From the NCBI GenBank assembly GCA_022376465.1, contig JACDTU010000007.1:62001-126000 (forward strand): a stretch of DNA of 64,000 nucleotides, given 5' to 3'. Of the stretch, positions 1,860-46,100 are shown in pieces (within the stretch, counting starts at the first letter, position 1; each line of letters opens with the position of its first letter). Made by a program: the position numbers and the translations under genes. Origin of the DNA: Cubamyces lactineus. Taxonomy: Eukaryota; Basidiomycota; Agaricomycetes; Polyporales; Polyporaceae. The notes below the pieces were generated by a model. The model was not told the DNA's origin. It ran no database searches and saw only the letters and a list, made by a program, of their open reading frames with translations.

Positions 1860-2154
1860 AGGATCCCGAGTGGATCCTCTGGTCTTAAATACAGGAAGAG
1901 AGACATGGACACGTCAGCGCCACGTAGGCGCCACGTACCGTGAGGGTCCAGTATAACTACGTAGAGTCAGGGCTGGGAATACAGATGATGTGGCGATGAC
2001 GTGGCGGAAGGTGATAGGGTAGTAATACAACAGCCGTGTGAACCGGTGGGAAAGGGTGACGTGGCATGGGAAAGGATGACGTGGCATAACGGAGGCACGA
2101 GGGAGAGAGAGGAAAAGGAAACTGGGTGACCGTGACGTACTGAGCGTCGTAACA
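1860..2154 (-). repeat. 3' LTR of element B, truncated by insertion of element A
   Basis: The 295 bp match positions 9098-9392 without a difference I could find. On the minus strand it begins TGTTACGACG, directly after the polypurine tract, which fixes its 5' boundary. The remaining 121 bp present in the 5' LTR are missing here because element A starts at 1859. It carries three TGACGTGG motifs at 1997-2004, 2057-2064 and 2077-2084. Confidence 0.92.
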
Positions 2155-2165
2155 TTACCCCCTTC
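2155..2165 (-). other. Polypurine tract of element B
   Basis: The minus strand reads GAAGGGGGTAA immediately before the TG of the 3' LTR. This is the expected position and composition for the plus-strand DNA primer of an LTR retroelement. Confidence 0.8.
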
Positions 2166-2203
2166 ATATGCTTCTACGCTGTTCCATCAGCGGAATATCC
2201 AGC

Positions 2204-3238
2204 TCAACTCGTAAACCGCTCGTCCATGTCTTCTGGGCGCAGAGGGCACTCCCACGGGTGATGGCCAGGGGCGGTGGCGCGACACCAGACACATCGCCAG
2301 TCTCTGCACCGCAGGTACTCGTGGTCGGGCGACCCACAGACTAGGCAGCTGCGGCCAATAGGGTGGAGGGACGGCGGGGACTCAGGTCGGGCTGGCGAAG
2401 CGTCCATTGGGGCAGGCGAGGTGTCTCTTCGAGCTCTTACGTTACGCTCGTCGGGGGATGGATCACGGGGCCGACGGCTTCCTGCGGAGACTCTGGTGTG
2501 GAACAAGGGCAGATAGGTCCCTTGGCGTCGAGCTTCGCCGGGTACTCTTCTTGCCGCAGCTGGGAGTTCTCCGGGAGGTGGGGCCGCGTCGTTGATGACC
2601 GAGGCCAGTGGCGCCATCCTTGCACGGAATGCGGGGAGTTCAAATGTTTGTATGAGGAAGTTCCTCCACGTGCGCGTGGTCCGGACGAGCCGTCGAGTGG
2701 TGTTCAAAGAGTGTCTCGCCAACCTCCGTAACTCGTGGGCATGGTGCCCGACGTTTTCGAGGGCGCGCGCCTGCCGTTCTGCGATGTCGTAGTCCGAGAC
2801 TTGCCGTTGCTCCTCTTCTTCACCAAACGCCTCATGAAGAGCGTCTAGAGCGTCCTCTGCGATGTCAGCTGCGTCAACAAGGTTCCCTTCCAGTGCGTCC
2901 AGTTCCCGTTGCTCGTTGTAGAGGCATCGATACTCTCTAAGGAAGTACTGCAAGCCTCGCTCGGTGGCATTGACGACTGGGGTAGGGTTGGTGAGGAGCG
3001 CACGGAGCAACTGGTTGACGTCGGGGTGCCGGGAGTGGTCTACCAGATGAGAGTCTTCGACACCAACCGTGCTGAGGTCCGACGTCGAGGAGGCGGGCGA
3101 TGGTGACCTAGAGGTGTATTCCGGTGGGGGCGACGAGAGGCGTCTGGCGAGTGGGGGAGGAATGGGTAGCGGCTGTTGGTTTTCCTGATCGCTTGCATTG
3201 TCGTCAGCGACTTGGGTGCTATAGAGGGGGCGGCCCAT
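2204..3238 (-). CDS. Element B extra ORF 3: zinc-knuckle protein downstream of integrase
   Basis: The frame runs from the first ATG at 3238 (1 nt after the stop of the preceding small ORF) to 2204, 344 aa. It has a Pro/Ser-rich N-terminus, then a Glu/Ala/Arg-rich helical, probably coiled-coil middle. The C-terminus holds a CCHC knuckle (CLVCGSPDHEYLRC, C-x2-C-x4-H-x4-C) followed at once by a second cluster (CVWCRATAPGHHPWEC, C-x2-C-x6-H-x4-C). A zinc knuckle in this place is unusual, because the element's gag already has one. It could bind the element's RNA or DNA. It is neither integrase nor a recognised env; the function is unknown. An upstream in-frame TTG at 3286 gives a longer frame, but the ATG abutting the previous stop is preferred. 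Confidence 0.75.
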   Translation of the reverse strand: MGRPLYSTQVADDNASDQENQQPLPIPPPLARRLSSPPPEYTSRSPSPASSTSDLSTVGVEDSHLVDHSRHPDVNQLLRALLTNPTPVVNATERGLQYFLREYRCLYNEQRELDALEGNLVDAADIAEDALDALHEAFGEEEEQRQVSDYDIAERQARALENVGHHAHELRRLARHSLNTTRRLVRTTRTWRNFLIQTFELPAFRARMAPLASVINDAAPPPGELPAAARRVPGEARRQGTYLPLFHTRVSAGSRRPRDPSPDERNVRARRDTSPAPMDASPARPESPPSLHPIGRSCLVCGSPDHEYLRCRDWRCVWCRATAPGHHPWECPLRPEDMDERFTS

Positions 3239-3239
3239 T

Positions 3240-3428
3240 CTACTCGTCCCAGCTGGAGTTATTGAGGGTGCGGTCGGCCTGGTCAAGCTTGTCGTTTACG
3301 GGGTCGAGAGGGTCACGGTGTTCGAGAGCAATTTCGAGGATGTTGATGGAGAGGCGTAGGTGAGTGGCGATGAAGGCAAGGGCAAGGAGGTAGCCGAGGG
3401 TCATGCAGGTGAAGAGCGCGATGATCAT
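3240..3428 (-). CDS. Element B extra ORF 2: small single-pass membrane protein
   Basis: A 62-aa frame starts at an ATG 5 nt after the stop of extra ORF 1 and ends 1 nt before the ATG of extra ORF 3. Residues about 2-22 form one hydrophobic segment (MIIALFTCMTLGYLLALAF). The rest is polar and acidic. Codons strongly favour C in the third position, like the neighbouring pol gene, so the frame is probably translated. No known family recognised. The position (after integrase) and tight packing recall the env slot of retroviruses and errantiviruses, but at this size it is not a glycoprotein. Confidence 0.55.
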   Translation of the reverse strand: MIIALFTCMTLGYLLALAFIATHLRLSINILEIALEHRDPLDPVNDKLDQADRTLNNSSWDE

Positions 3429-3433
3429 GGGCT

Positions 3434-3592
3434 TCACGATCCCCACGCTGATCGAGATGGGTAGTCACGGCTGTGGAGAGTGTGCTCGATGATGCGGTTG
3501 AAGAGGTCACAGAGGATATACCAGAGAAAGAGGAGGGTGATAGCGAGGAGGGTGAGGCAGTAGATGGCGAAGAGGATGGCGAGAGAGAGCAT
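3434..3592 (-). CDS. Element B extra ORF 1: very small membrane protein
   Basis: A 52-aa frame opens with an ATG 6 nt after the pol stop. Residues about 2-27 are a long hydrophobic helix beginning MLSLAILFAIYCLTLLAITL. A short basic/polar tail follows. Almost every codon ends in C, matching pol and arguing against a chance ORF. With extra ORFs 2 and 3 it forms a compact block with gaps of only 6, 5 and 1 nt. No homologous family recognised. Confidence 0.5.
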   Translation of the reverse strand: MLSLAILFAIYCLTLLAITLLFLWYILCDLFNRIIEHTLHSRDYPSRSAWGS

Positions 3593-3598
3593 TGCAGA

Positions 3599-5476
3599 TT
3601 ACAGCAGCTTCTTCGCCCTTTTATACCGTTGGAGGATTTCTTTGGCGTTCGGAATTAGAGCGGACTCGGGTTCCCATGTGTTCTCGGCGCTGGAGTAGCC
3701 TTTCCACTTGATTTGGTAGCGGATTCCGCCTCGTGTGGTCTTGTGTCCGACGATCGCTTCGACCTCATATTCTTCTTCTCCGTCGATAAGGTCAGGTGGT
3801 GGCCTCGTGTAGTTCGGTCCGTGGGTGTCGTTTTCCTTGTATGGGGTGAGGAAGCATGCGTGGAACACGGGGTGTACCTTCCAGTGTTTCGGCAGCTCCA
3901 GCCGATAGGTCACGGGTCCAAGTACTTCGGTGATGACAAAGGGGCCTTCCCGTTTGGGTGCGAGTTTCCGGGATGCGTAAGCGAGCTTGAGGTTCTTCCC
4001 TTCGAGCCAGACCTTCTGTCCTTTCTTGAATTGGACGAACTTTCCCTTGAACCTGTCGCGTATGACGTGTCGGGCTAGCTCGTGGGCTGCTAGGGCTTCG
4101 TCTCGGGCCTTCTGGAGGTTCACTAGCCGTTCTTGTACTGTCGGGGTGTTGGTCTTGGGGTATGCGATAGGAATCAGTGTCGGTTCGTACCCCGTCATGA
4201 GGTAGAATGGTGATGCGTTCCGTGCTGAGTGGGTCCGTTGATTGTGTGCGACTTCTGCGTCGACAAGGTGTTCCACCCATTCGTCTGGTCGGCCTTCGCA
4301 GAATATCCTGAGGTAGACTTCCAGTTCTTGATTCACTCGTTCAGTTTGTCCGTCGGTCTGCGGGTGATATGCGGTAGACGGGGAAAGGGTGATGCCTAAG
4401 AGTCTTCCTAGTTCGCGAGTGACGTTGGATACGAATTGTGGCCCTCGGTCGGATATGATCTTGCTGGGTAGTCCAAAGTGTCGGTAGACATGCCGGTGGT
4501 AAAGCGCCGCTGTGCCGATTGCGTCGATCGTCTTCTTGCATGGTGCGAAAATCACCCCCTTCGTAAGGCCATGGTCGACCACGACCAGAATACTATCGTA
4601 GCCGTGGGATTCGGGGAGATCGGTGATGAGATCCATCGTGACGTTCTGGAATGGCCGAGTAACATCGTCAGCGGGGATTGGTTGTGGGGGCGGGGTGGTC
4701 GGGTGTGTGTTTGGCTTGTTCTGCTGGCATGTGGCACAGCCTTCGACGTATCGGGATACCATGGCATACATGCCGGGCCACCAGTATGACCGTCGTATCA
4801 GTTCTAGAGTCTTGAATTTCCCAGGGTGTCCGGCTGCCGGGGAGTCGTGGTGTTGACTGATCAGGTCTTGTCGCAGGGCTTCGTCGGCCGGTACGTAACA
4901 TCGGTTCTTGTAGAAGATTAAGCCATCTCGTTCTTGCCAATCGGTGAGTGCACTTCTGATCGGGGGTGGTCCGTCGTGTTGGATGGCAGCAAGTGCGTCG
5001 CAAAAGAGTCTGTCTTGCGTGGCCAAGTGTCGGAACCTCGGTGCCAGTCGGGTGTCCACTAGTCGTACGAAGAGGTTGTCAGGTAGCATGGTTCGTTCAG
5101 TATTGTCGTCTTCTGATCCTTGTCGGTGATCGGGTCTTCGGGATAGCGCATCCGATTGTACCATTGCCGTGCCGGGGGTGTGTACGAGTTGGATGTCGAA
5201 CTGGGAGAGAAAGAGGGCCCATCGTGCTTGTCGTCTGTTCAGTTGTTGCGGGTTGCGCCAGTAGGTGAGGTTCTTGTGGTCGGATAGGATCGTAACCGGG
5301 TGCCCTGATCCTTCGAGGTAGTGTCGCCAGGCCTTCAGGGCTCGAATGATGCCAAGTAGTTCTCGGTCATAGATTTCGTAGTTCCGTTCCGCTTCGGTGA
5401 ATCCTTCGGATAGGTACGCGCACGGGTGCAGGTCGCCGTTGGCATCCCGTGCCGGAGTACTGCCCCTGTGGCCCAT
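3599..5476 (-). pseudogene. Element B pol, 3' part: RNase H remainder, integrase, chromodomain (frame-shifted from the 5' part)
   Basis: This frame continues RNase H (acidic motif in [24 protein letters not shown]). It then encodes an HHCC zinc domain (H..H in [13 protein letters not shown] in [10 protein letters not shown]), the DDE integrase core ([10 protein letters not shown] for the first Asp; [10 protein letters not shown] for the second; the Glu further on), and a C-terminal chromodomain over roughly the last 55 residues ([28 protein letters not shown]). Chromodomains on chromovirus integrases direct insertion to modified chromatin. The frame is displaced by one base from the RT frame, because one base is missing around 5447-5454. 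The nominal start codon of this frame is therefore not a real start. Confidence 0.92.
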
Positions 5477-7446
5477 TGCGAAGCGTCGGATTCGACAACA
5501 AAGGGTTTGCTAACGTCGGGCATTTGCAGCACGGGGGCCGTCGCGAATCGTTGCTTCAGCATGTCGAAGGCCTTCTGGCATTCCGTTGTCCATTCCCATT
5601 TAGCGTCTTTCTTGGTGAGCGCGTTGAGCGGTCGCGCGATCTCGGAGAAGTGGTCGATGAATCGTCGGTAAAAGTTGCCGAATCCAAGGAATGATCGAAC
5701 GTCCTTGACGGTTGTCGGTTCTGGCCAGTCGAGTATTCCCTTTATCTTGATAGGGTCCATGGAGATCCGGTTCTCGCTGATGATCATTCCAAGATACTCC
5801 ACTTCTGGTGCGTCGAATACGCATTTCTCTAGCTTGAGGTAGAGGTCGTGTTCTTTGAGTCGTTCCAGGACACGTAAGGTCCTTCTTCGGTGTTCGTCCA
5901 GGTCTGCCGAAAAGATCAGTATGTCGTCCATGTAAATCACTACCCATCCTTCGTCGATCATGTCTGCGAAGATCGCGTTCATCATAGCTTGGAAAGCCGA
6001 GGGGGAGTTCCGCAGTCCAAAGAACATGACCATTGGTTCGTATAGCCCTTTGCTGGTTCGGAAGGCGGCCTTCCATTGATCACCGTCCTTGATACGGACG
6101 TTGTTGTATCCCGATCGGAGGTCCAGTTTGGAGAAAACCTTCGCTCCGCGCAGCTTGTCGACCAATTCCGATATGAGCGGTAGTGGGTACTTGTTGGGGA
6201 CAGTTCCTTCGTTGAGGTATCGATAGTCTTGGCAGGGTCGTAGTGTTCCGTCCTTCTTGCCGACGAAGAAGAATGGGGATGCCATCGGCGAGTTCGAGGG
6301 TCGGATGTAGCCTTTTCGTAGGTTCTCCCGGATGAATTCCTCCTCGGCTTCGAGTTCCTTGGGCGTGAGTTGATATCGCTTGAAGTCCTTCGGGGTAAAG
6401 CCTTCCTTGAGTTCAATGGCCAGGTCCCAGGGTCGTGATGATGGGAATCGTTCGGATGCCTTCTTTTCAAAGATGGCGGCATATCCTCGGTACGGTTCGG
6501 GGAGCATTTCTTCGAAAGTCTTCTTCTCTTCCTGTGCTTGGTGCTGTTGTGCGAGTGCCATTGCGGGGTTGACCTTTGCTCGGATCCAGACATTGGCTGC
6601 AATTGCAAATCGAAGTCCTTGTGGGGCTCGTCGGATTCTTCCGATGGTGGGTCCGGGTCCAATCTTCGTGGGTTCGTAGTCGTGTTCCGTGGTGAGGGGG
6701 GATCCGGGTCGAGGCATATCTCCGTGCCATTCTGTCGCATGCGATGCTATCATGGCTTCGTGTTCTCCGCGAAGATAAGCTATCAGCAGATCTTGGTCGT
6801 TGGGTTCTTCTTCCGGGTGCACGTCGGAGAGGGTAACTCGTTCGATGTTCTCGTAGATTGGTTCTTGGGTCGATGCTTCCTCGGTCGCGTCTTCGTCTTC
6901 TTCATCTGTTTCTTCGTCCGGTTCTTCTTCAACTGGCTTGGGTCTTCCGGTGAAGGGGTCTTGATCTGGGAACCACATTGCACGCAGATGTTCCACAATT
7001 GTTCGGTTTACCCGGGCGGGGTCGATATCGAGGGTCCCTTTCGTGAAGTCGATGTTGGCATTGACGCGCTGCAGCCATGGCAGGCCCAGGATGATTGGTT
7101 CCTTTCCTAGCGACGTAATCAGGAACCGCACAATGTGTCGGTGGCGCCCAGCTTCAATTTCAAGGACTGCGCATTTCTTGATATCGCCTGCTTCATTCCT
7201 GGTTCCGTCAGCGTTGTATACTCGGATCGGGGCTTTCAGCGATTTGAGCGGGAAGTTGTGCTCTTTCGCAAACCTGTGGTCCATGAATACTTCTCCCGCT
7301 CCCGTGTCGATGAGGGCTTTCGTTTCGACGCTTAGGTCCGCGTGGATAGATAACGGAATTCTCATAGACTGTCGAGAAGTCTGCGCTACTATTACACGGC
7401 GGACCTTAGTACGCGGTCGTGACGTCGAGGCACGCCGGTTCTTCAA
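5335..7446 (-). CDS. Element B pol, 5' part: aspartic protease, reverse transcriptase, start of RNase H
   Basis: Domains in order: a retropepsin with the active site LIDTGAG (Asp near residue 47); an acidic linker around residues 170-220; then the RT with [13 protein letters not shown], the palm motif [10 protein letters not shown], and the catalytic YMDD at 5923-5934 (residues 505-508). It then enters RNase H ([14 protein letters not shown]), where the frame is lost by a one-base deletion and runs into about 40 unrelated residues before the stop. The frame has no ATG near its start. It is entered from gag by a -1 shift at GGGTTTT (7446-7452). It makes cDNA inside cytoplasmic particles. Confidence 0.92.
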
Positions 7447-8444
7447 AAACCCTCGTTGGAGAAGCTTGCGAGGATTTCCTTCGCGTCTTGGTCTTCCTCT
7501 AGCCCCTTCAGAGCGGTACGGATCCTTGCTGCGATAAGCTGCTTCTTGTCAGCCGCTTGGCCGTCGATGGATTTGATGTCTTCATCATCGTCGCTCTCGT
7601 CTTCTTCGACCTCGGTGATGCGGGCCTTGGCAGCTGGCTTCGTCTTCTTCCGGTCATTGGTTCTTCTGTTGGGGCACTGCCGCGCTAGATGCCCTATCTG
7701 GTGGCAATTGAAGCATCGTCCTTCTCGGTAGTGCTTCTCACGTTCTTCGGTCGTCATCTTGTCGACATCCATGGCGTCAGGGTCGCGTTCTTGCGGTCGG
7801 GGTCTGTACGGCTTGTACGTAGGTCGGAAGGTCGAGGTCTTCCCGTCGTATGCTCTTCCCAGGTGATACTGCTGTTCGAGAGTGGAGGCTCGGAGGTAGA
7901 GTTCGCTGGCGTCCTTCGGTAGGGGGTACATCCCGAAGATCTTCTCTCGAAGGGGACGGTTGAGTCCAGCATAGAAGAAGTCGGCAATGACTTCGAACTC
8001 TGTGATTCCGCATCGCGAGATGATCGACTTGAACTCGGCGATGTAGTCTTCGACTTTCTTGCTTCCTTGCTTCAGGTTTCGCAGCAGCACACGGGCGCTG
8101 GCCTTCTGGTCGATGTCGTCGAATGCTTCCAGTAGTTGCTTCTTGAAGTCGTCCCATGTTCCGTAGTTGGGTTCGATACGTTCTTCGCCTGGTCTTCGGT
8201 TCTTGTTCTGGTCGGCTGCCTGCCGTTCTACGTCTTCAATGAAGGTGCGGGCCCAGGTTCCGGCGGTGCCCCCGTTCATCAGCATAAGGCAGAAGACGAT
8301 CTTCATTTCGTCGGTGGCATAGGTCTTCTTGTTCATCGTGAGGTAGAGGGAGCATTTCTGCAACCACTCCACTACTTCGCCCCGCTTCCCTGAGAACTCT
8401 GGGGGCATCTTGAGCTTGATCTCGTTCGTCTTTTCTTCAGCCAT
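7443..8444 (-). CDS. Element B Gag with CCHC zinc knuckle
   Basis: The 333-aa frame starts MAEEKTNEIKLKMPPEFSGK. It holds a retrotransposon capsid region (FVGLNRPL-type helix seen as FFYAGLNRPLREKIFGMYP), a basic segment, and a zinc knuckle CFNCHQIGHLARQC (C-x2-C-x4-H-x4-C). An acidic C-terminal tail follows. It forms the particle and packages RNA. The frame stays open for about 176 codons upstream of this ATG, up to a TAG 3 nt inside the LTR boundary, without any ATG; see the leader entry. Confidence 0.9.
   Translation of the reverse strand: MAEEKTNEIKLKMPPEFSGKRGEVVEWLQKCSLYLTMNKKTYATDEMKIVFCLMLMNGGTAGTWARTFIEDVERQAADQNKNRRPGEERIEPNYGTWDDFKKQLLEAFDDIDQKASARVLLRNLKQGSKKVEDYIAEFKSIISRCGITEFEVIADFFYAGLNRPLREKIFGMYPLPKDASELYLRASTLEQQYHLGRAYDGKTSTFRPTYKPYRPRPQERDPDAMDVDKMTTEEREKHYREGRCFNCHQIGHLARQCPNRRTNDRKKTKPAAKARITEVEEDESDDDEDIKSIDGQAADKKQLIAARIRTALKGLEEDQDAKEILASFSNEGF
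7446..7452 (-). promoter_or_regulatory. Programmed -1 ribosomal frameshift site between gag and pol of element B
   Basis: The minus strand reads G GGT TTT followed directly by the gag stop TGA. This is an exact X-XXY-YYZ slippery heptamer placed in the gag frame. Slipping back one base continues into the protease/RT frame. A downstream stimulatory structure was not tested. Confidence 0.7.
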
Positions 8445-8976
8445 TGTGGCTTCGGTTCGGCCTTCGGGTTTGTTTGCAGTTCGGTTCGATTCTTCTTGAG
8501 GGGTCTTCCCTACGGGTTCTGGTGCGGCTTCGCTTCCCTCCGGGTCGTGGTCGTCGTTCGAAGTTCTTGCAGCGTTCTCGCTTTCTGGTTCACTCTCCTC
8601 GAGTATCTCCGCCTGAGCTGGTCTGGGAGTAGTGAAGTCTACCGGGGAAGGTTGTTCTGGTTCTGTTCTCGGTTCCGGGGTGGCCGCTGGTTCCTCCGGA
8701 AGTTCGTCTCCAAGTGATATTTCGCGGTAGCGTCTTCGGTAGTCGGGGTCGATGTCAAGGCAGTTCCGCCAGGTGAGAGGGACTTCGGTGAAGTGCCAGG
8801 ACTTGTTCTTCCAGAAGACTTGTTGCCCTTCGTAGTAGACTAGCTTGGCTTCCTTGTCAACCGCAAATTCTTTCGGTATCGACGCCGTGTTGTTCGGTTC
8901 GGGGCCGCTCTGTCTTGAGCGGGTGTCGTGTGTCGAGATCTGGGTAGATCGACGGGTTCTGGTGAGCTCGACCTAA
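8445..8976 (-). other. Element B leader with an ATG-less open frame in phase with gag
   Basis: Between the 5' LTR and the gag ATG the gag frame is open throughout and looks coding. It includes the stretches VYYEGQQVFWKNKSWHFTEV and DPDYRRRYREISLGDELP, then an acidic Pro/Glu-rich part. No in-frame ATG, GTG or TTG exists. The start may be a non-AUG codon (an ACG at 8886-8888 is one candidate), may be supplied by splicing, or may have been lost by mutation. The sequence directly after the LTR (TTAGGTCGAGCTCACC) lacks the usual TGG of a tRNA 3'-end primer site. Confidence 0.55.
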
Positions 8977-9392
8977 TGTTACGACGAGCCTAGATCAGTC
9001 ACACAAGCGACGTCCCAGGGATCGGACCAGAGGTCTCCAGTAGTTCGAGTCGAGTAGAGGTTCAGAGGAATAGGCAATGGATAACCAGGTCGAGCTGAGG
9101 ATCCCGAGTGGATCCTCTGGTCTTAAATACAGGAAGAGAGACATGGACACGTCAGCGCCACGTAGGCGCCACGTACCGTGAGGGTCCAGTATAACTACGT
9201 AGAGTCAGGGCTGGGAATACAGATGATGTGGCGATGACGTGGCGGAAGGTGATAGGGTAGTAATACAACAGCCGTGTGAACCGGTGGGAAAGGGTGACGT
9301 GGCATGGGAAAGGATGACGTGGCATAACGGAGGCACGAGGGAGAGAGAGGAAAAGGAAACTGGGTGACCGTGACGTACTGAGCGTCGTAACA
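8977..9392 (-). repeat. 5' LTR of element B, complete
   Basis: The 416-bp repeat begins TGTTACGACG (at 9392, minus strand) and ends CGTCGTAACA (at 8977), a perfect 10-bp terminal inverted repeat. Its first 295 bp equal the 3' LTR at 1860-2154. It carries three TGACGTGG motifs in the U3 part and a TATTTAA-type TATA element further in. Confidence 0.92.
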
Positions 9393-17241: not shown

Positions 17242-18540
17242 ATGGTTGCCATTCGTACCTACGCCTTCTCTGTGCTACTCCTGCACGTTCTCGCTGCGAT
17301 CACGGTGACGGTATGTACGATCCCATATGCATTTGCCGATACACTCGCCGATCGATAACTAAATCACATTAATGTATTCATGGATTAGTTGTCGGCCGCA
17401 GTGACCTCGGACGATGTTGTCCGCGCCCGACTAGCATTGGAGCAACAAGACCTGAAATTTCGCAAGACAGACGCGCATACATACGAGATGCTCATCGATC
17501 AGGACGAAGAGCGCCGCATCGTCGAGCTGCTCGGGCCCGACTACCTCAACGTTGGGCTAGTCTCCACAAGGGTTACAGGCCCGCCTCGCCACTGCCCTGT
17601 CTGTGGAAAGGCAACCGAGTTTGTCGATTGGTGGGTTCCGTGTTCCTTCGCGAACGAGTTTACTCTGAAGCGTAGCTAATCGCCTTTCACGCATGTTCAG
17701 GGTCTTCACTGCACTCGCTCGGGGAATCCATTCGCCCGAGTTCATTGTTGAGTCTCTCAAGCTAGGAAACTCGCCAAAGAAGCTTGAGCACGACGTCTAC
17801 TGCTCTAGCTGCGGACGCTTAACCAATTTCCGCGACGCGACTGGCGAAGAGGGGGGTGCACCATACCTTGCTCTTGCTACGGTACGCCCGCCATCTCTCC
17901 TTCCGGAATGCGCGTTCCTCGTTAAACACGGGTACTTGTAGCCGTATGATCAGGCTACGCGCACGTTCGGCGAGAACGCGTACAAACGGGATGCCACGAA
18001 TCAACCAGCAAAGGTAGTTCCCATCACCCGATGTCTATGCAATGGTTATAATGCTAAATTTGCGCAATCCAGCGCGCTGAATCTGATGACACAGACACCG
18101 ACATAATCAACGAAGCGTCCGATCTGCATAGTCGTGACCATGTCGGTTGGTTCTCTGAGTGGATCCCGCCACGAGACGTGCCCGAAAGCGCTGCAAAGAG
18201 CCTCTTCGCGGAAACCTTGCAGCCAGCCAACGAAGATGCGGAGCCATCTCTTGGAGGCCCAGGTGCATGGCACTATCCGTGGGGGAGAAAGCGCGACGAC
18301 GAGGAACCAGTAGTCTCTCCTGCCAAGACTATCGGTTGGCACCCACTTTGGGACAGGAAGCGCGACGAGCCGGAGTCGGTTTCTGTGTGGATAGGTCGAT
18401 GGATCCAGAAGCGGGGCGAAGGGACCGAAAACATGGTCTCAGAGCTCATCGGCGAAAATAACAAGCGCGACGACAACTCCGTTGACACACCGGACCGATG
18501 GGGTACAGCGTGGCTCAACGTTGGGAAATCGGGGGAATGA
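17242..18540 (+). CDS. Secreted repeat-peptide precursor 1 (Kex2-type sites, five W-x3-W units)
   Basis: Exons 17242-17310, 17389-17630, 17701-17881, 17942-18013 and 18073-18540 join in phase to 343 aa. Residues 1-23 form a signal peptide (MVAIRTYAFSVLLLHVLAAI). Residues about 35-165 form a domain shared with the next gene, with CPVC and, about 45 residues on, CSSC; it may bind zinc. The C-terminal part has W-x3-W at residues 214-218, 254-258, 277-281, 294-298 and 331-335. Three of the five are followed within two residues by Lys-Arg. The residues around the tryptophans differ in every unit. The likely role is a secreted precursor cut by Kex2 in the Golgi into several different short peptides. 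Mature peptides and any modification are inference. No modifying enzyme is recognised nearby. Confidence 0.85.
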
Positions 18541-19838
18541 AGTTCTTGCTTCGGTAATCTCCTTTCTGAGTCGGGAGCAGCCATCAATTTCTTAGGTAGG
18601 ATGCGAGAAGCGCAGACTCTGGGGTAGACGAGCATGCGCGGTGTACGATAGATATCTTGTGCGCTTGTAGCATAAGCTAGAGAGTAATCCCTAGCTTGTA
18701 TTGTTTGAGACTCTGAGTCACACGAACAATTGAAATTGATGCTCGCCCCCTGCCAGTGCTGCTTGCGACTTCCGAGCCTATCATACTACTAGTAGTATGC
18801 CTCCCTCCTCACCGATGTCTGCAGCTTGCATCCGCGAGCCTCAAACTTGTGTCAGTGTGCATGGTATCATGACTACCATATAGGGAATGACACCCGGATG
18901 AACGACGACGCTGCGCGCTAAGCTTTCTGATGCGCCGTTTTGTCAGGGCCTACAGGATCGCCATGGACAATGGACAGCAGACCGTACCTCGATACTCGAA
19001 CATGATGCCACTTGGGAGCTCAACTTCATCCTCAGATGCTGCACTGGAATTCAACCAGATCCTATCACAGCCTATGCTTTTGGTCACTGGTGAGCCGTGA
19101 CGGATGCGGAGTTCTGTTGGCCTTCAGGCCGACTTGTTGAGAGATGATAGTGAAAGGGCGAACGCGCCTGACGAAGGCGTCCCGACGTTCTCCAAACGCA
19201 ACGAGGTCGCCTCCTACTTATTTCTGACCACAGAGTTGACTCGTGAGGCGCGACGGAACCCCGAGCCTGGACGCTATGCCGTTGGATGATAACACAAAAT
19301 GTTGTGCATCTGATTCTGTCACATCATGGCTAGAGAAGGCCGTCACTTTCGTAAGTACCTGAGTCTCGTGGAGCTCAAGTCAACGTCCTCGTTTCATGTC
19401 CTGAACTGCGATCTTTTTCTCCGTAGACAATCCCTCGCACGAACGGGTAGGTCATCTAGCACTCGGCCAGCACGTATACGTACTAAAACTTATCATGTCT
19501 CGGCAGACTCTGCAGGCATTTCGTCATAGGGGCCGACAGCCGACAGATCCACCATGGTAGCATACGGCTGTACGGTCGCATTGGGCCGCCCACGGGGAAG
19601 GACCGGTGACACTGATAACCAGATACTCCATGAGCCCACTCATAGTCAGTAGGTTCGTGTTGTCTGTGGACTTCCCAGCATGCTGCCCGGCGGCCATCGC
19701 CAGCCGTTCAAGCCCAACCATCAGACCTATGATCTGATAGGAATAGCGCTGCTCGAAGTCGGCGAAAATAGCAACCAAAACGCCTGCTCTGAGAGTGGCC
19801 GCTGAATGCCTTTGAGTAGATATAGAGATGGCTGGCAC
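18541..19838. other. Spacer between the two precursor genes
   Basis: About 1.3 kb without a convincing gene. I looked for a third, decayed copy of the precursor family (CxxC domain, KR-flanked units) and saw none. Confidence 0.5.
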
Positions 19839-19845
19839 TATAAAG
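19839..19845 (+). promoter_or_regulatory. TATA box of peptide-precursor gene 2
   Basis: TATAAAG lies 110 bp upstream of the ATG at 19949, a normal distance for a fungal promoter. Confidence 0.5.
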
Positions 19846-19948
19846 ACGGCCATGGACAGCAAAGATCTGGCAAGCGGCTAGTCGCTCTCGCAGAGTTCCT
19901 GTTCTCCTGCCAAACGTCCAATCTCTTCCCTCTTGCGGCGTAACGGCC

Positions 19949-21292
19949 ATGGCTGCCATTCGTACATACGCTTTTGGCGTGCTCCTCCTGCACATACTCG
20001 CCGCTCTGCTGACGGTAAGCACAAGTCACTTCCCCACTGGCCATAATGGAGATCTTACCGCCTTCGTATCCGCCCCGTTCACAGTCATCAGCAGCGGTGA
20101 CCGATGGCCTTGCTGGTGCCCGCGCCCGTCTCGCTCTGCAAGAGCCGAAGTACCGGCAGATTAGCCCGCACTCCTACGAGATGCTCATAGACGCGGATGA
20201 AGAACGCCGCATCGTCGAGCTGCTCGGGCCAGAGTACCTCGATGTCGGACTCGTCGCTACGAGGGTCACAGGTCCGCCGCGGGCCTGTCCCGTATGCGGG
20301 AAGCAAACCGAGTTCGTCGACTGGTGGGTTCCCCTTCTCTTGTCGGCGGGCTCGGGTAGTCGGTTCATGACGCTGATTGTCCTTCTTATACAGGGTCTTC
20401 ACTGCGCTTGCTCGTGGGATCCACTCGCCCGAGTTCATCCTCGAGTCGCTCAGACAGGGAAACCCGCCGCGAAAGCGTGTGCACGACGTATATTGCTCCG
20501 GGTGCGGACACCTCACTCAGTTCCAGGACTCCACTGGTGAGGAGGGCGGCGCGCCTTACCTCGCTTTGGCGACGGTGAGTACATGGACGACACATCTCCT
20601 ACGTCGGCGCTTGCTTGGATGTCTGGGATAGTACGCTGACTTGCGGTTTGCAGCCGTATGACCGGGTCAGGCGGACGTTTGGGGAGAGCGTCTACAAGCG
20701 GGGCCATGACGTTCCGCACAAGAAGCGCGACGAGTCGACGTATGGCTGGGACACCATCAGCTGCATCGCTAAACGCGACGACTTCGAGCGCGAGACGAAG
20801 AGACACTCGCCCGATTTGTCGAGTCGCGACGAGGTCCCAGAAGAGAAGCGCGACGAGTCGACGTACGGTTGGGATACCATCAGCTGTTTGACCAAGCGCG
20901 ACGACCTCGAGAACCGATCCCCGGAAGAGGTGCCCGACAAGAAGCGCAACGAAGAAACCTATGGCTGGGACACTATCAGTTGCCTCACTAAACGCGCTGA
21001 CCTCGAGCGCGAGGCCCGTGACGAGGTCGTGGACAAGAAGCGCGACGAGACGACCTATGGTTGGGACACCATCAGTTGCCTCACTAAACGCGCTGACCTC
21101 GTCGACGAAGTCGCGGACAAAAAACGCGACGAAGAGACCTACGGCTGGGACACTATCAGTTGCCTGACCAAACGAACCGACCTCGAGCGCGAAGCCAGCG
21201 AGGCCCTCCACAAGCGCGAGGAAGAAACCTATGGTTGGGACACCATCAGCTGCCTCACCAAGCGTAGTGACCTGGAGGGCGAGGCGAAGTGA
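19949..21292 (+). CDS. Secreted repeat-peptide precursor 2 (six KR-flanked YGWDTISC units)
   Basis: Exons 19949-20014, 20085-20323, 20394-20574 and 20654-21292 join in phase to 374 aa. Intron positions and phases match the first three introns of the paralog at 17242. Residues 1-22 are a signal peptide. Residues about 30-162 are the conserved domain with CPVC and CSGC. The last 212 residues are a repeat array. The core YGWDTISC begins at residues 192, 233, 265, 297, 325 and 355, each followed by Leu/Ile-Thr/Ala-Lys-Arg. Acidic spacers end in Lys-Arg before the next core. Cutting at both sites would release six copies of nearly one peptide of about 12-13 residues. The layout matches Kex2-processed repeat precursors, including fungal ribosomal peptides of the ustiloxin/phomopsin type. 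Secretion and cleavage are strongly implied; cyclisation is speculative. Confidence 0.9.
20750..21268 (+). repeat. Coding tandem array of six peptide units
   Basis: Six in-frame repeats, 84-123 nt apart, lie inside the last exon of precursor 2. The 8-residue core is invariant at the protein level, while synonymous sites (for example TAT/TAC, GGC/GGT, AGC/AGT) vary. This indicates selection on the peptide, not just recent DNA duplication. Confidence 0.9.
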
Positions 21293-43180: not shown

Positions 43181-46100
43181 ATGGACCCCATCGTGACGGA
43201 CGAGCGCAGTACCTCAAGCTCCAGCTCTATCCAGGAGAAGGAAAAGATCGACGTCGAGAGAGCCGGTAGGTAACAACGACTGTCCACCGATGTTCGCTAC
43301 TAAGCTGCGCGTCCCGTTGTAGCGGTCAAAGTACAAGATGTAGTAGCGGACTTCGACGACCCAAACATCGACAAGGATGCAATTCTCCTTGGTACGTGCA
43401 TCGGCATCGACAGCCTCACAGAGTCTGACCGCATCCCCGGCAGAGGACGACTCGCCATATCCGGAGGTCCGTTCTGCCGTCGCAAATACGGATGACCCTT
43501 CCATGCCCGTCTCGTCGCTGCGGGTCTGGGTCATCGGCATCATATGGGCTATCATCATACCGGGCATGAACCAGTTCTTCTTCTTCCGCTTCCCCAGTGT
43601 CACTGTTGGAGGCGTAGGTGGCACCGACCATTCAAACCATTCAACGCTTGCTCATGAGTGTTCGCAGATCGTGGCACAACTTATCTCGTTTCCCGTCGGC
43701 CGGCTCTGGGCGCGGGTTGTTCCCAATGTCAAGATCTTCGGTGTCTCGCTCAACCCGGGCCCATTCACCGTCAAGGAACACGTCCTCATTACGATCATGG
43801 CTAGTGTCGGATCTGGGTCAGCGTACGCGGTGGGTTGTCCAGCTCTCAGAACGATATTGTGTGCGCCTTCCTCAACTCCGACTAGACAGATATTGTCGCA
43901 GTGCAGCGGGTATACTACAATCAAATCTATAATTTCGGCTGTGAGTATGTCTCTCGCTCACTCAACGCTCGCCTGACATATACTGTCGCAGACCAATGGA
44001 TGGTGGTCATGAGTACACAACTTGTGAGTCCCGCCAGCAGCACGAACTTTGATCTTCGAATTTCATACTGTCAACTTTAGATTGGGTTCTCGATTGGAGG
44101 CATTGCCCGTCGGTTCCTCGTGCAGCCGCCCTCTATGAGTAAGCGCGTTCCCTGGTCCGCGTATAGTAGCGTGAGCGACTGACGGTCTGAGCCTGATTCC
44201 TCCAGTCTGGCCCGCCAACCTCGTGACATGCGCCCTCTTCAACACCTTGCACTCCCAGGTGTATGCCGGTATGGGTAATCGTGGCGGAATCAGCCGCGAA
44301 CGGTTCTTCTTCTACGCCTTTCTCGGCTCGACGTGCTGGTACTTCTTCCCCGGGTACATATTCCAGGCCCTCTCGTTCTTCAACTGGGTCTGCTGGATTG
44401 CCCCGAACAACGTGGTCGTCAACCAGCTCTTTGGCTACAGCAGTGGGCTTGTGAGATCGCCGACTCCTACGAGTATGCTCAGCGTTACTCACAACACGTT
44501 CAGGGGATGTCACTTGTCACCTTCGACTGGGCGCAGGTATGTCGTATTCGAGCTCCGACATGGACGAGTACTTATCCTCGCACCAGATCGCTTACATTGG
44601 ATCCCCTCTTGCAACGCCATGGTGGGCAGAAGCCAATGTCGCCGTGGGCTTTGTATTCTTCTTCTGTACGTACCAGTACCGTCTCATGTTGCCCTTGTCT
44701 TATAATCTGCAGGGATCGTCACGCCCATTCTATACTACACGAATGCCTGGTATAGCAAGTTCATGCCGTCAGTGTTCACGCTAAGTTGTTAGTAGAGGTT
44801 CCTCTCACGCATGTCATCCAGGATCTCTTCGCGTACATCGTTTGACCGCTTCGGCCAAACTTACGACGTCTCGCGGATCATCAACGAAGACGCCAGCCTC
44901 AACGTCGCAAAATACGAGGCCTACAGCCCCTTGTTCCTCTCCACGACATTCGCGCTCTCCTATGGCCTTTCATTCGCGTCGATCACGGCGACGCTCACTC
45001 ATACGTTCCTGTACTTCCGCAAGCAGATCTGGGTGCAGTCCAGGCGCTCGATGAGCGAACAACCCGATATCCACGCACGGCTCATGTCGAAGTATCCCCA
45101 GGTTCCCGAATGGTGGTATGCCATCATCTTCCGTAAGTAGTTCTACGTTACCTTTCCTCGTAACAAATACTGATGCACACCGCCCAATAGTCAGCATGTT
45201 CGTCTTTGGCATCATCTCCATCGAGGTGTGGAACACACAATTCCCTGTCTGGGCATTCGTGCTCGCTTTAATCATCTGTAAGCGTCCTTCAAGTTCGCTT
45301 TCATTCTCTGCCGTAGATATCTGATATATGCCTCCCAGCATTCGTGTATACTATCCCTATCGGCATGATCCAAGCCATCACGAACCAGCAGATCGGTCTG
45401 AAGTACGTCTCGTGCTCGCTGCGTTGCTGTACCTACTAACTTCGTTGCATAGTGTTATCACCGAGCTGATCATCGGCTATGCTCTGCCCGGACGCCCCAT
45501 TGCGATGATGATGTTCAAGACCTGGGGATACATCACCATGGCGCAGGCGCTGACTTTCACGTCCGACTTCAAGCTCGGCCACTACATGAAGATTCCACCG
45601 CGGCCCATGTTCTGGTCGCAGGTCGTCGCGACCGTTGTCGCCGGAACGGTGCAGCTCGGCGTCCAGGCATGGATGTTCACTAACATCGACGGCCTATGCT
45701 CTCCTGATCAACCTAATGGCTTCATTGTACGTGATAATCCGTGTTTCCATGTTCATATATTAATTATGTGTCGTAGTGCCCTTCCACGCAAGTGTTTGGC
45801 ACTGCTTCGATCATTTGGGGTGTCATCGGGCCAGCACGTCAATTCTCTCCTGGCCAGATCTACTAGTAAGTGATCGTATATCCCCAAGCGCGTTGTCACA
45901 CAACTCAACCCGCGTTCCAGTGGCCTCGTGTTCTTCTTCATCATTGGCATCGGTTGTCCTATCGCCGGATACCTGATCACGCTCAAGTGGCCGAACTCCT
46001 TCATGAAATACGTCAACTTCCCGGTCATCTTCAGCGGCACGGGTCTCATCCCGCCAGCGACGGCGTTCAACTACGTCCCCTGGTCGATCGTTGGATTCGT

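Follow-up and report, generated by a model that had tools for sequence, protein, structure and literature searches.

Two neighbouring genes on the forward strand of a 64,000-nucleotide stretch (the window) from contig C41 of the 36.3 Mb genome of Cubamyces lactineus (Polyporales) belong to a real and selected family, best read as a sub-family of the Kex2-processed repeat proteins (KEPs). Both combine a conserved cysteine domain with a C-terminal half, called cargo in the following, that holds Trp-containing peptides and Lys-Arg (KR) sites. We consider it likely that the domain serves as a constant leader and that linear Trp peptides, released by Kex2 and Kex1, act extracellularly. A sequence-only reading of this region had proposed a candidate new peptide system, which goes too far, since KEPs are already an established class in fungi (PMC7329392, PMC9769878, PMC6339444).

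Gene 1 encodes 343 amino acids (aa) in 5 exons (17242-18540, forward strand) and gene 2 encodes 374 aa in 4 exons (19949-21292, forward strand), with GT-AG introns throughout. Over 225 aligned residues the proteins are 64% identical (E 1e-88), and introns 1-3 match in position and phase (0, 2, 0), which bears out the earlier proposal that the two genes share a CxxC...CxxC domain and three intron positions; intron 4 is present in gene 1 and not in gene 2. The model of gene 2 is identical along all 374 aa to the NCBI hypothetical protein C8Q73DRAFT_468890 (P0001). The public model of gene 1 (P0018, 145 aa) departs from the 343-aa model inside exon 3 and does not contain the cargo. The features of the pair are as follows:

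17242..17310, +: gene 1 exon 1, probable signal peptide, judged by eye from the hydrophobic N-terminus of the gene model (gene 2 and paralog C start alike)
17389..18013, +: gene 1 exons 2-4 (17389-17630, 17701-17881 and 17942-18013) with the introns between them, conserved CPVCG...CSSCG domain and linker (gene model; P0018 carries PF26731.1)
18073..18540, +: gene 1 exon 5, the cargo half, which contains the five W-x3-W units and 4 of the 6 KR sites; a fifth KR spans the preceding intron
18148..18162, +: gene 1 W unit 1, WFSEW, no adjoining KR (counted from the gene model)
18268..18294, +: gene 1 W unit 2, WHYPWGRKR
18337..18363, +: gene 1 W unit 3, WHPLWDRKR
18388..18414, +: gene 1 W unit 4, WIGRWIQKR
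18499..18513, +: gene 1 W unit 5, WGTAW, no adjoining KR
19949..20014, +: gene 2 exon 1, probable signal peptide (same start as P0001; by eye)
20085..20574, +: gene 2 exons 2-3 (20085-20323, 20394-20574) and their intron, conserved CPVCG...CSGCG domain (PF26731.1 precomputed on P0001)
20654..21292, +: gene 2 exon 4, last part of the domain, followed by the linker, the KR-bounded array including its spacer peptides, and the stop codon
20729..21265, +: gene 2 array, in which the 16-residue unit [DNE]E[STE]TYGWDTISC[LI][TA]KR occurs six times, separated by five spacers

The conserved domain comprises about 130 residues with two CxxCG knuckles, and the four knuckle cysteines as well as an HDVYC stretch are invariant among 16 aligned members. 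The ratio of nonsynonymous to synonymous substitution rates (dN/dS) of this N-terminal domain is 0.11 for gene 1 versus gene 2 and 0.13 for gene 1 versus a paralog described below (paralog C), and the domain is under purifying selection. For the cargo of gene 1 and paralog C, a dN/dS of 0.34 was obtained from 149 alignable codons, with silent sites being near saturation and the alignment uncertain. A signal peptide shared by both genes had also been proposed, and hydrophobic, signal-peptide-like N-termini are present in genes 1 and 2, in paralog C and in the full-length aligned members, as judged by eye. Scans with the domain against profile collections matched no catalytic family. Weak and partial matches at E<=0.01 were found to Zn_ribbon_NUD (6 of the 16 members, best 3.7e-05) and to zf_Tbcl_2 (2 of 16), zinc-ribbon/treble-clef domains that have CxxCG knuckles in common with the family, and the knuckles may bind zinc. 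A structure model of a relative's domain (predicted local distance difference test 72.5, predicted template modelling score 0.66) yielded no clear match among solved structures; since the model is only of moderate quality, this does not demonstrate a new fold.

The cargo of gene 2 consists of the six 16-residue units listed above, alternating with mostly acidic spacers. The earlier description of KR-bounded repeat peptides in both genes, and with it the repeated dibasic-separated peptides by which KEPs are defined, applies to gene 2 but only loosely to gene 1, in which a tandem-repeat search reported no repeat and five degenerate W-x3-W units are found, three of them followed by x2-KR. The number of KR sites after the domain is 6 for gene 1 and 14 for gene 2. 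Among the pooled codons of the gene 2 units, the proportions of synonymous (pS) and nonsynonymous differences (pN) were 0.69 and 0.07 (pN/pS 0.10), so the differences are mainly silent, the nine constant residues being constant by choice because the units were selected by exact TYGWDTISC. Similarly, the nine units of paralog H, selected by exact WRPLW, had a pS of 0.56 and a pN of 0.06; no missed units were seen by eye for either gene. The high pS among the gene 2 units indicates that they are old and that each of them has been retained. P0002 from Cubamyces sp. BRFM 1775, the closest relative of gene 2, contains five TYGWDTISC units with differing spacers, and KR is kept around every unit in both proteins.

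Relatives had been proposed to be sought with the N-terminal domain and compared by their C-terminal repeats. Three protein searches, each of which scored about 8000 candidates, returned 10, 25 and 24 proteins at E<=1, corresponding to 38 distinct ids, from Cubamyces, Trametes, Lenzites, Daedaleopsis, Earliella, Lentinus, Fomes, Polyporus, Dichomitus and Serendipita. Serendipita belongs to the Sebacinales, while all other genera are presumably polypores. PF26731.1 is precomputed on 31 of these 38 proteins, including P0001 and P0018, and a prokaryote scan confirmed no relative. A six-frame search of the C. lactineus genome revealed at least five further loci, all on contig C41, giving at least seven together with genes 1 and 2, two of which are damaged.

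The C-terminal peptides of these loci and relatives do differ, but they are largely built on a common Trp frame rather than being unrelated. For the cargo count, residues upstream of KR or RR sites after the domain were compared in 20 sequences, namely 17 of the 38 proteins and our own models of gene 1 and paralogs C and H; the 21 proteins left out comprise fragmentary or truncated models (including P0003 and P0018, for which those of paralog C and gene 1 were used instead) and the array-less P0036 and P0037. Trp occupies position -3 at 68 of the 134 KR/RR sites having that position (Cys at 11, Tyr at 2), compared with a mean of 2.8 and a maximum of 9 in 1000 shuffles. About half of the sites do not have Trp at -3, many of these ending spacers. 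Of 122 sites, 43 have Trp at -7 and 18 have it at -8. The Trp-Trp spacings are 3 (43 cases), 4 (5), 5 (7) and 8 residues (11), the last taking the form WCxxC-x4-W, which occurs in Lentinus, Polyporus, T. gibbosa and Earliella; units of the WCQRC type, which have a pair each of Cys and Trp, are present in P0026, P0031 and P0029 (Lentinus, Polyporus and Trametes gibbosa). In a survey of W units, in which P0036 and P0037 were considered next to the same 20 sequences, 16 of the 20 had one or more W-x(3-8)-W-x2 units before KR, RR or KK, the exceptions being gene 2, P0002, P0016 and P0017. In gene 2 and P0002 the residue at -3 is Cys, in the form W-x4-C-x2-KR, P0016 has a single Trp at -3, and P0017 as annotated contains no dibasic site and no array. 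Paralog D and P0004 each bear one W-x4-Y-x2-KR unit beside one W-x3-W unit.

In a tree of the domain (24 rows), gene 2 groups first with P0002 (100/95) and then with P0004 (88/84) within clades carrying W...W cargo, with many other forks being unsettled. Because it is nested in this way, the Cys form of gene 2 is best read as derived from the frame W-x(3-8)-W-x2-KR. The view that the cargos of the two genes are entirely different can accordingly not be upheld. Neither can that of a swapped cargo, as most cargos are variants of W...W-x2-dibasic and the gene 2 form is shared with its ortholog; the cargo has probably diverged on one frame instead. What stands of the original idea is a constant N-domain joined to KR-bounded peptides that have diversified across the seven loci and their relatives.

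The further loci on contig C41 are:

near 386 kb: paralog C, with WHYPW, WGVIW and WGSRW as well as two WGGAGRW units
near 389 kb: paralog D, without the part of the domain bearing the first CxxC
440 kb and 417 kb: paralogs F and E, apparent 5' and 3' parts of one gene
near 442 kb: paralog G, with five W...W units, three of them with KR
near 445 kb: paralog H, with nine WRPLWT[RK][KR]R units

A long terminal repeat (LTR) element is located at about 417.9-439.9 kb; its two LTRs agree at 433 of 435 positions, CCCTG is present on either side of it, and its ends are about 22 kb apart; by these sequence features, F and E look like one paralog split by a recent LTR element. Public annotation truncates several genes of the family or starts them late, which hides cargo or signal peptide in the models of gene 1 (P0018), C (P0003) and G (P0008). 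A separate LTR retrotransposon was noticed at 1860-9392 of the window, with minus-strand reading frames that look gag-pol-like by eye (2204-8972); the stretches flanking these frames are 84% and 88% identical to the LTR of the element between F and E.

With KEPs, the pair has in common a probable signal peptide (judged by eye here), dibasic-bounded repeated short peptides and peptides differing by taxon (PMC9769878, PMC7329392, PMC6339444). Unlike in the KEPs described, a conserved cysteine domain precedes the array, the peptides follow the W...W-x2-KR frame, and several loci are found on one contig. Word searches of PMC7329392 and PMC6339444 (main texts) and the parts of PMC9769878 that were examined gave no sign of such a domain, though the supplementary KEP tables may list members, and literature searches, with supplementary tables outside their scope, yielded no paper on the domain, PF26731.1 or six core-peptide strings. 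The sub-family thus appears not to be described in the literature found by these searches, in contrast to the KEP class itself. As neighbouring Trp residues are given as typical of common KEP types in the main text of PMC7329392, Trp-rich cores per se are not new. The KEP peptides QYKAPSW and SGVAADW described in PMC9769878 end in Trp, with STE13 motifs occurring as well, whereas here two residues follow the Trp and a second Trp is located upstream. The Coprinopsis cinerea protein 365456 (PMC9769878) is likewise secreted and combines a folded domain with a peptide flanked by Kex2 sites, but it contains one peptide instead of an array, and its domain is a C-terminal glycoside hydrolase.

According to the explanation we favour, the precursor would enter the secretory pathway, the N-domain would fold and act as a constant pro-region or leader, and the C-terminal half, probably unfolded, would be cut after Lys-Arg by Kex2-type proteases, with the basic residues trimmed by Kex1. 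The predicted products are short linear Trp peptides, for gene 2 about DEETYGWDTISCLT in six copies and for gene 1 differing W-x3-W peptides. Loci and species would thereby carry different peptides, largely on W-x(3-8)-W-x2-KR, with Cys replacing the second Trp in gene 2. The most likely place of action of the peptides would be extracellular, either where the fungus meets other organisms or among its hyphae. P_proprotein is a domain found in Kex2-type proteases, and a match to it on contig C12 fits the presence of such a protease. The detection of KEP peptides in Coprinopsis, Lentinula and Pleurotus is reported in the main text of PMC9769878.

Several observations weigh against this explanation. 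Dibasic pairs are also present in or beside the domain of gene 2 (RR 63, KR 129, RR 168), so that cutting cannot be assumed at every pair, and since KR adjoins only three of the five W units of gene 1, part of its cargo may stay unreleased. The Zn_ribbon_NUD profile gives 16.4 bits for gene 1 and 12.9 bits for gene 2, far under the cut-off of 24.8. Homologs without KR-flanked repeats, which the sequence-only reading had named as evidence against itself, are found in part: P0036 and P0037 (the latter from Serendipita) contain the domain with neither a hydrophobic N-terminus nor a KR array, and P0017 as annotated has the domain without an array. The domain is therefore not invariably coupled to an array; as several relatives are mis-annotated, array loss is indistinguishable from annotation error. 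In addition, six kep knockouts had no phenotype and synthetic peptides no antibacterial activity (PMC9769878, main text), which leaves an antibacterial role unsupported.

One could also suppose that the domain is the functional secreted product and that the C-terminal half stays uncut as a tail with several W-x(3-8)-W binding motifs. The domain is indeed the best-conserved part (dN/dS 0.11-0.13), it occurs array-less in P0036 and P0037, and two of the five W units of gene 1 as well as several in paralogs E and G are found without adjoining KR. Nevertheless, this is unlikely, because an uncut tail would not need the fixed Trp distance seen at 68 of 134 dibasic sites, nor the KR kept around each unit in gene 2 and P0002. 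It is even less likely that W-x2-KR mainly represents a recognition element of the processing protease in peptides without selected function: position -3 to the dibasic pair is the strongest single upstream position, but Trp frequently occupies -7 or -8 in addition, and the whole of TYGWDTISC is identical in six gene 2 and five P0002 units, so that we regard this as very improbable. Mating pheromones are the least plausible assignment of all and would be most surprising. Ascomycete alpha-type pheromones are KEPs (PMC6339444, main text), but genes 1 and 2 lack the STE13-type XA/XP dipeptides after the Kex2 site, KR being mostly followed by acidic residues, with one DA in gene 1. All STE3 receptor matches of the genome are on contig C14, and the C-termini GKSGE (gene 1) and EGEAK (gene 2) do not contain a CaaX box. 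Such a box is the mark of basidiomycete lipopeptide pheromones.

Modification of the peptides before release deserves separate consideration. Dikaritins, the ustiloxin-type ribosomally synthesized and post-translationally modified peptides (RiPPs), also derive from secreted precursors with Kex2-bounded repeats, and plant BURP-domain peptide cyclases fuse a conserved cysteine domain to Trp-containing core peptides. A domain that recruits a partner for, or itself performs, a Trp-Trp or (in gene 2) Trp-Cys crosslink before Kex2 release would agree with the constant fused domain and with paired fixed residues (W...W, W...C, WCxxC...W) around variable ones; Trp-Cys bridges are known from Amanita peptides. 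However, the nine matches to UstYa (DUF3328) in the genome are on contigs C1, C23 and C40 and none on C41, so that the peptides are probably linear, and unlike in dikaritins, it is Trp, not Tyr, that is most strongly fixed in the majority of members. A DUF3328 gene is located nearby in 6.1% of basidiomycete KEPs (PMC7329392, main text). Moreover, the domain matches no catalytic family, and no known tailoring enzyme was found among the five Pfam-matched frames (P5-ATPase, esterase, lysine methyltransferase and twice OPT transporter) of the ten scanned out of 67 window frames >=150 aa, the nearest frames flanking the genes being only partly included. According to the abstract of PMC9769878, the KEP peptides so far detected in Agaricomycetes are linear and carry minimal modification. 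Taken together, a RiPP substrate seems doubtful. Equally doubtful is a direct interaction of domain and peptides, in which W-x3-W would stem from the single WGKWWLDD-type tail of the domain protein itself, have multiplied into Kex2-bounded arrays once the protein was secreted in polypores, and still be bound or modified in cis by the domain ahead of release, possibly as a Trp-Cys thioether in gene 2. P0036 and P0037 share a WGKWWLDD tail resembling the W-x3-W-L-E units of Earliella, a likeness of a few residues only, and a second structure model gave no support for it. If true, such an interaction would make the family a peptide system in which precursor and handler are one self-contained protein.

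Many fungi have KEPs, few of which have a known function, and their fast-changing arrays are hard to compare. The constant domain offers a handle by which members can be found and their peptides lined up across polypores, and the W-x(3-8)-W-x2-KR frame together with predicted product masses is directly testable in culture fluid. If the domain guides processing or modification, a leader-domain logic would be added to the KEP class. The interest of the pair thus rests more on the constant domain and the shared Trp frame than on a swapped cargo.

An OPT oligopeptide transporter gene is located at 43347-45870 of the window, about 22 kb downstream of gene 2.

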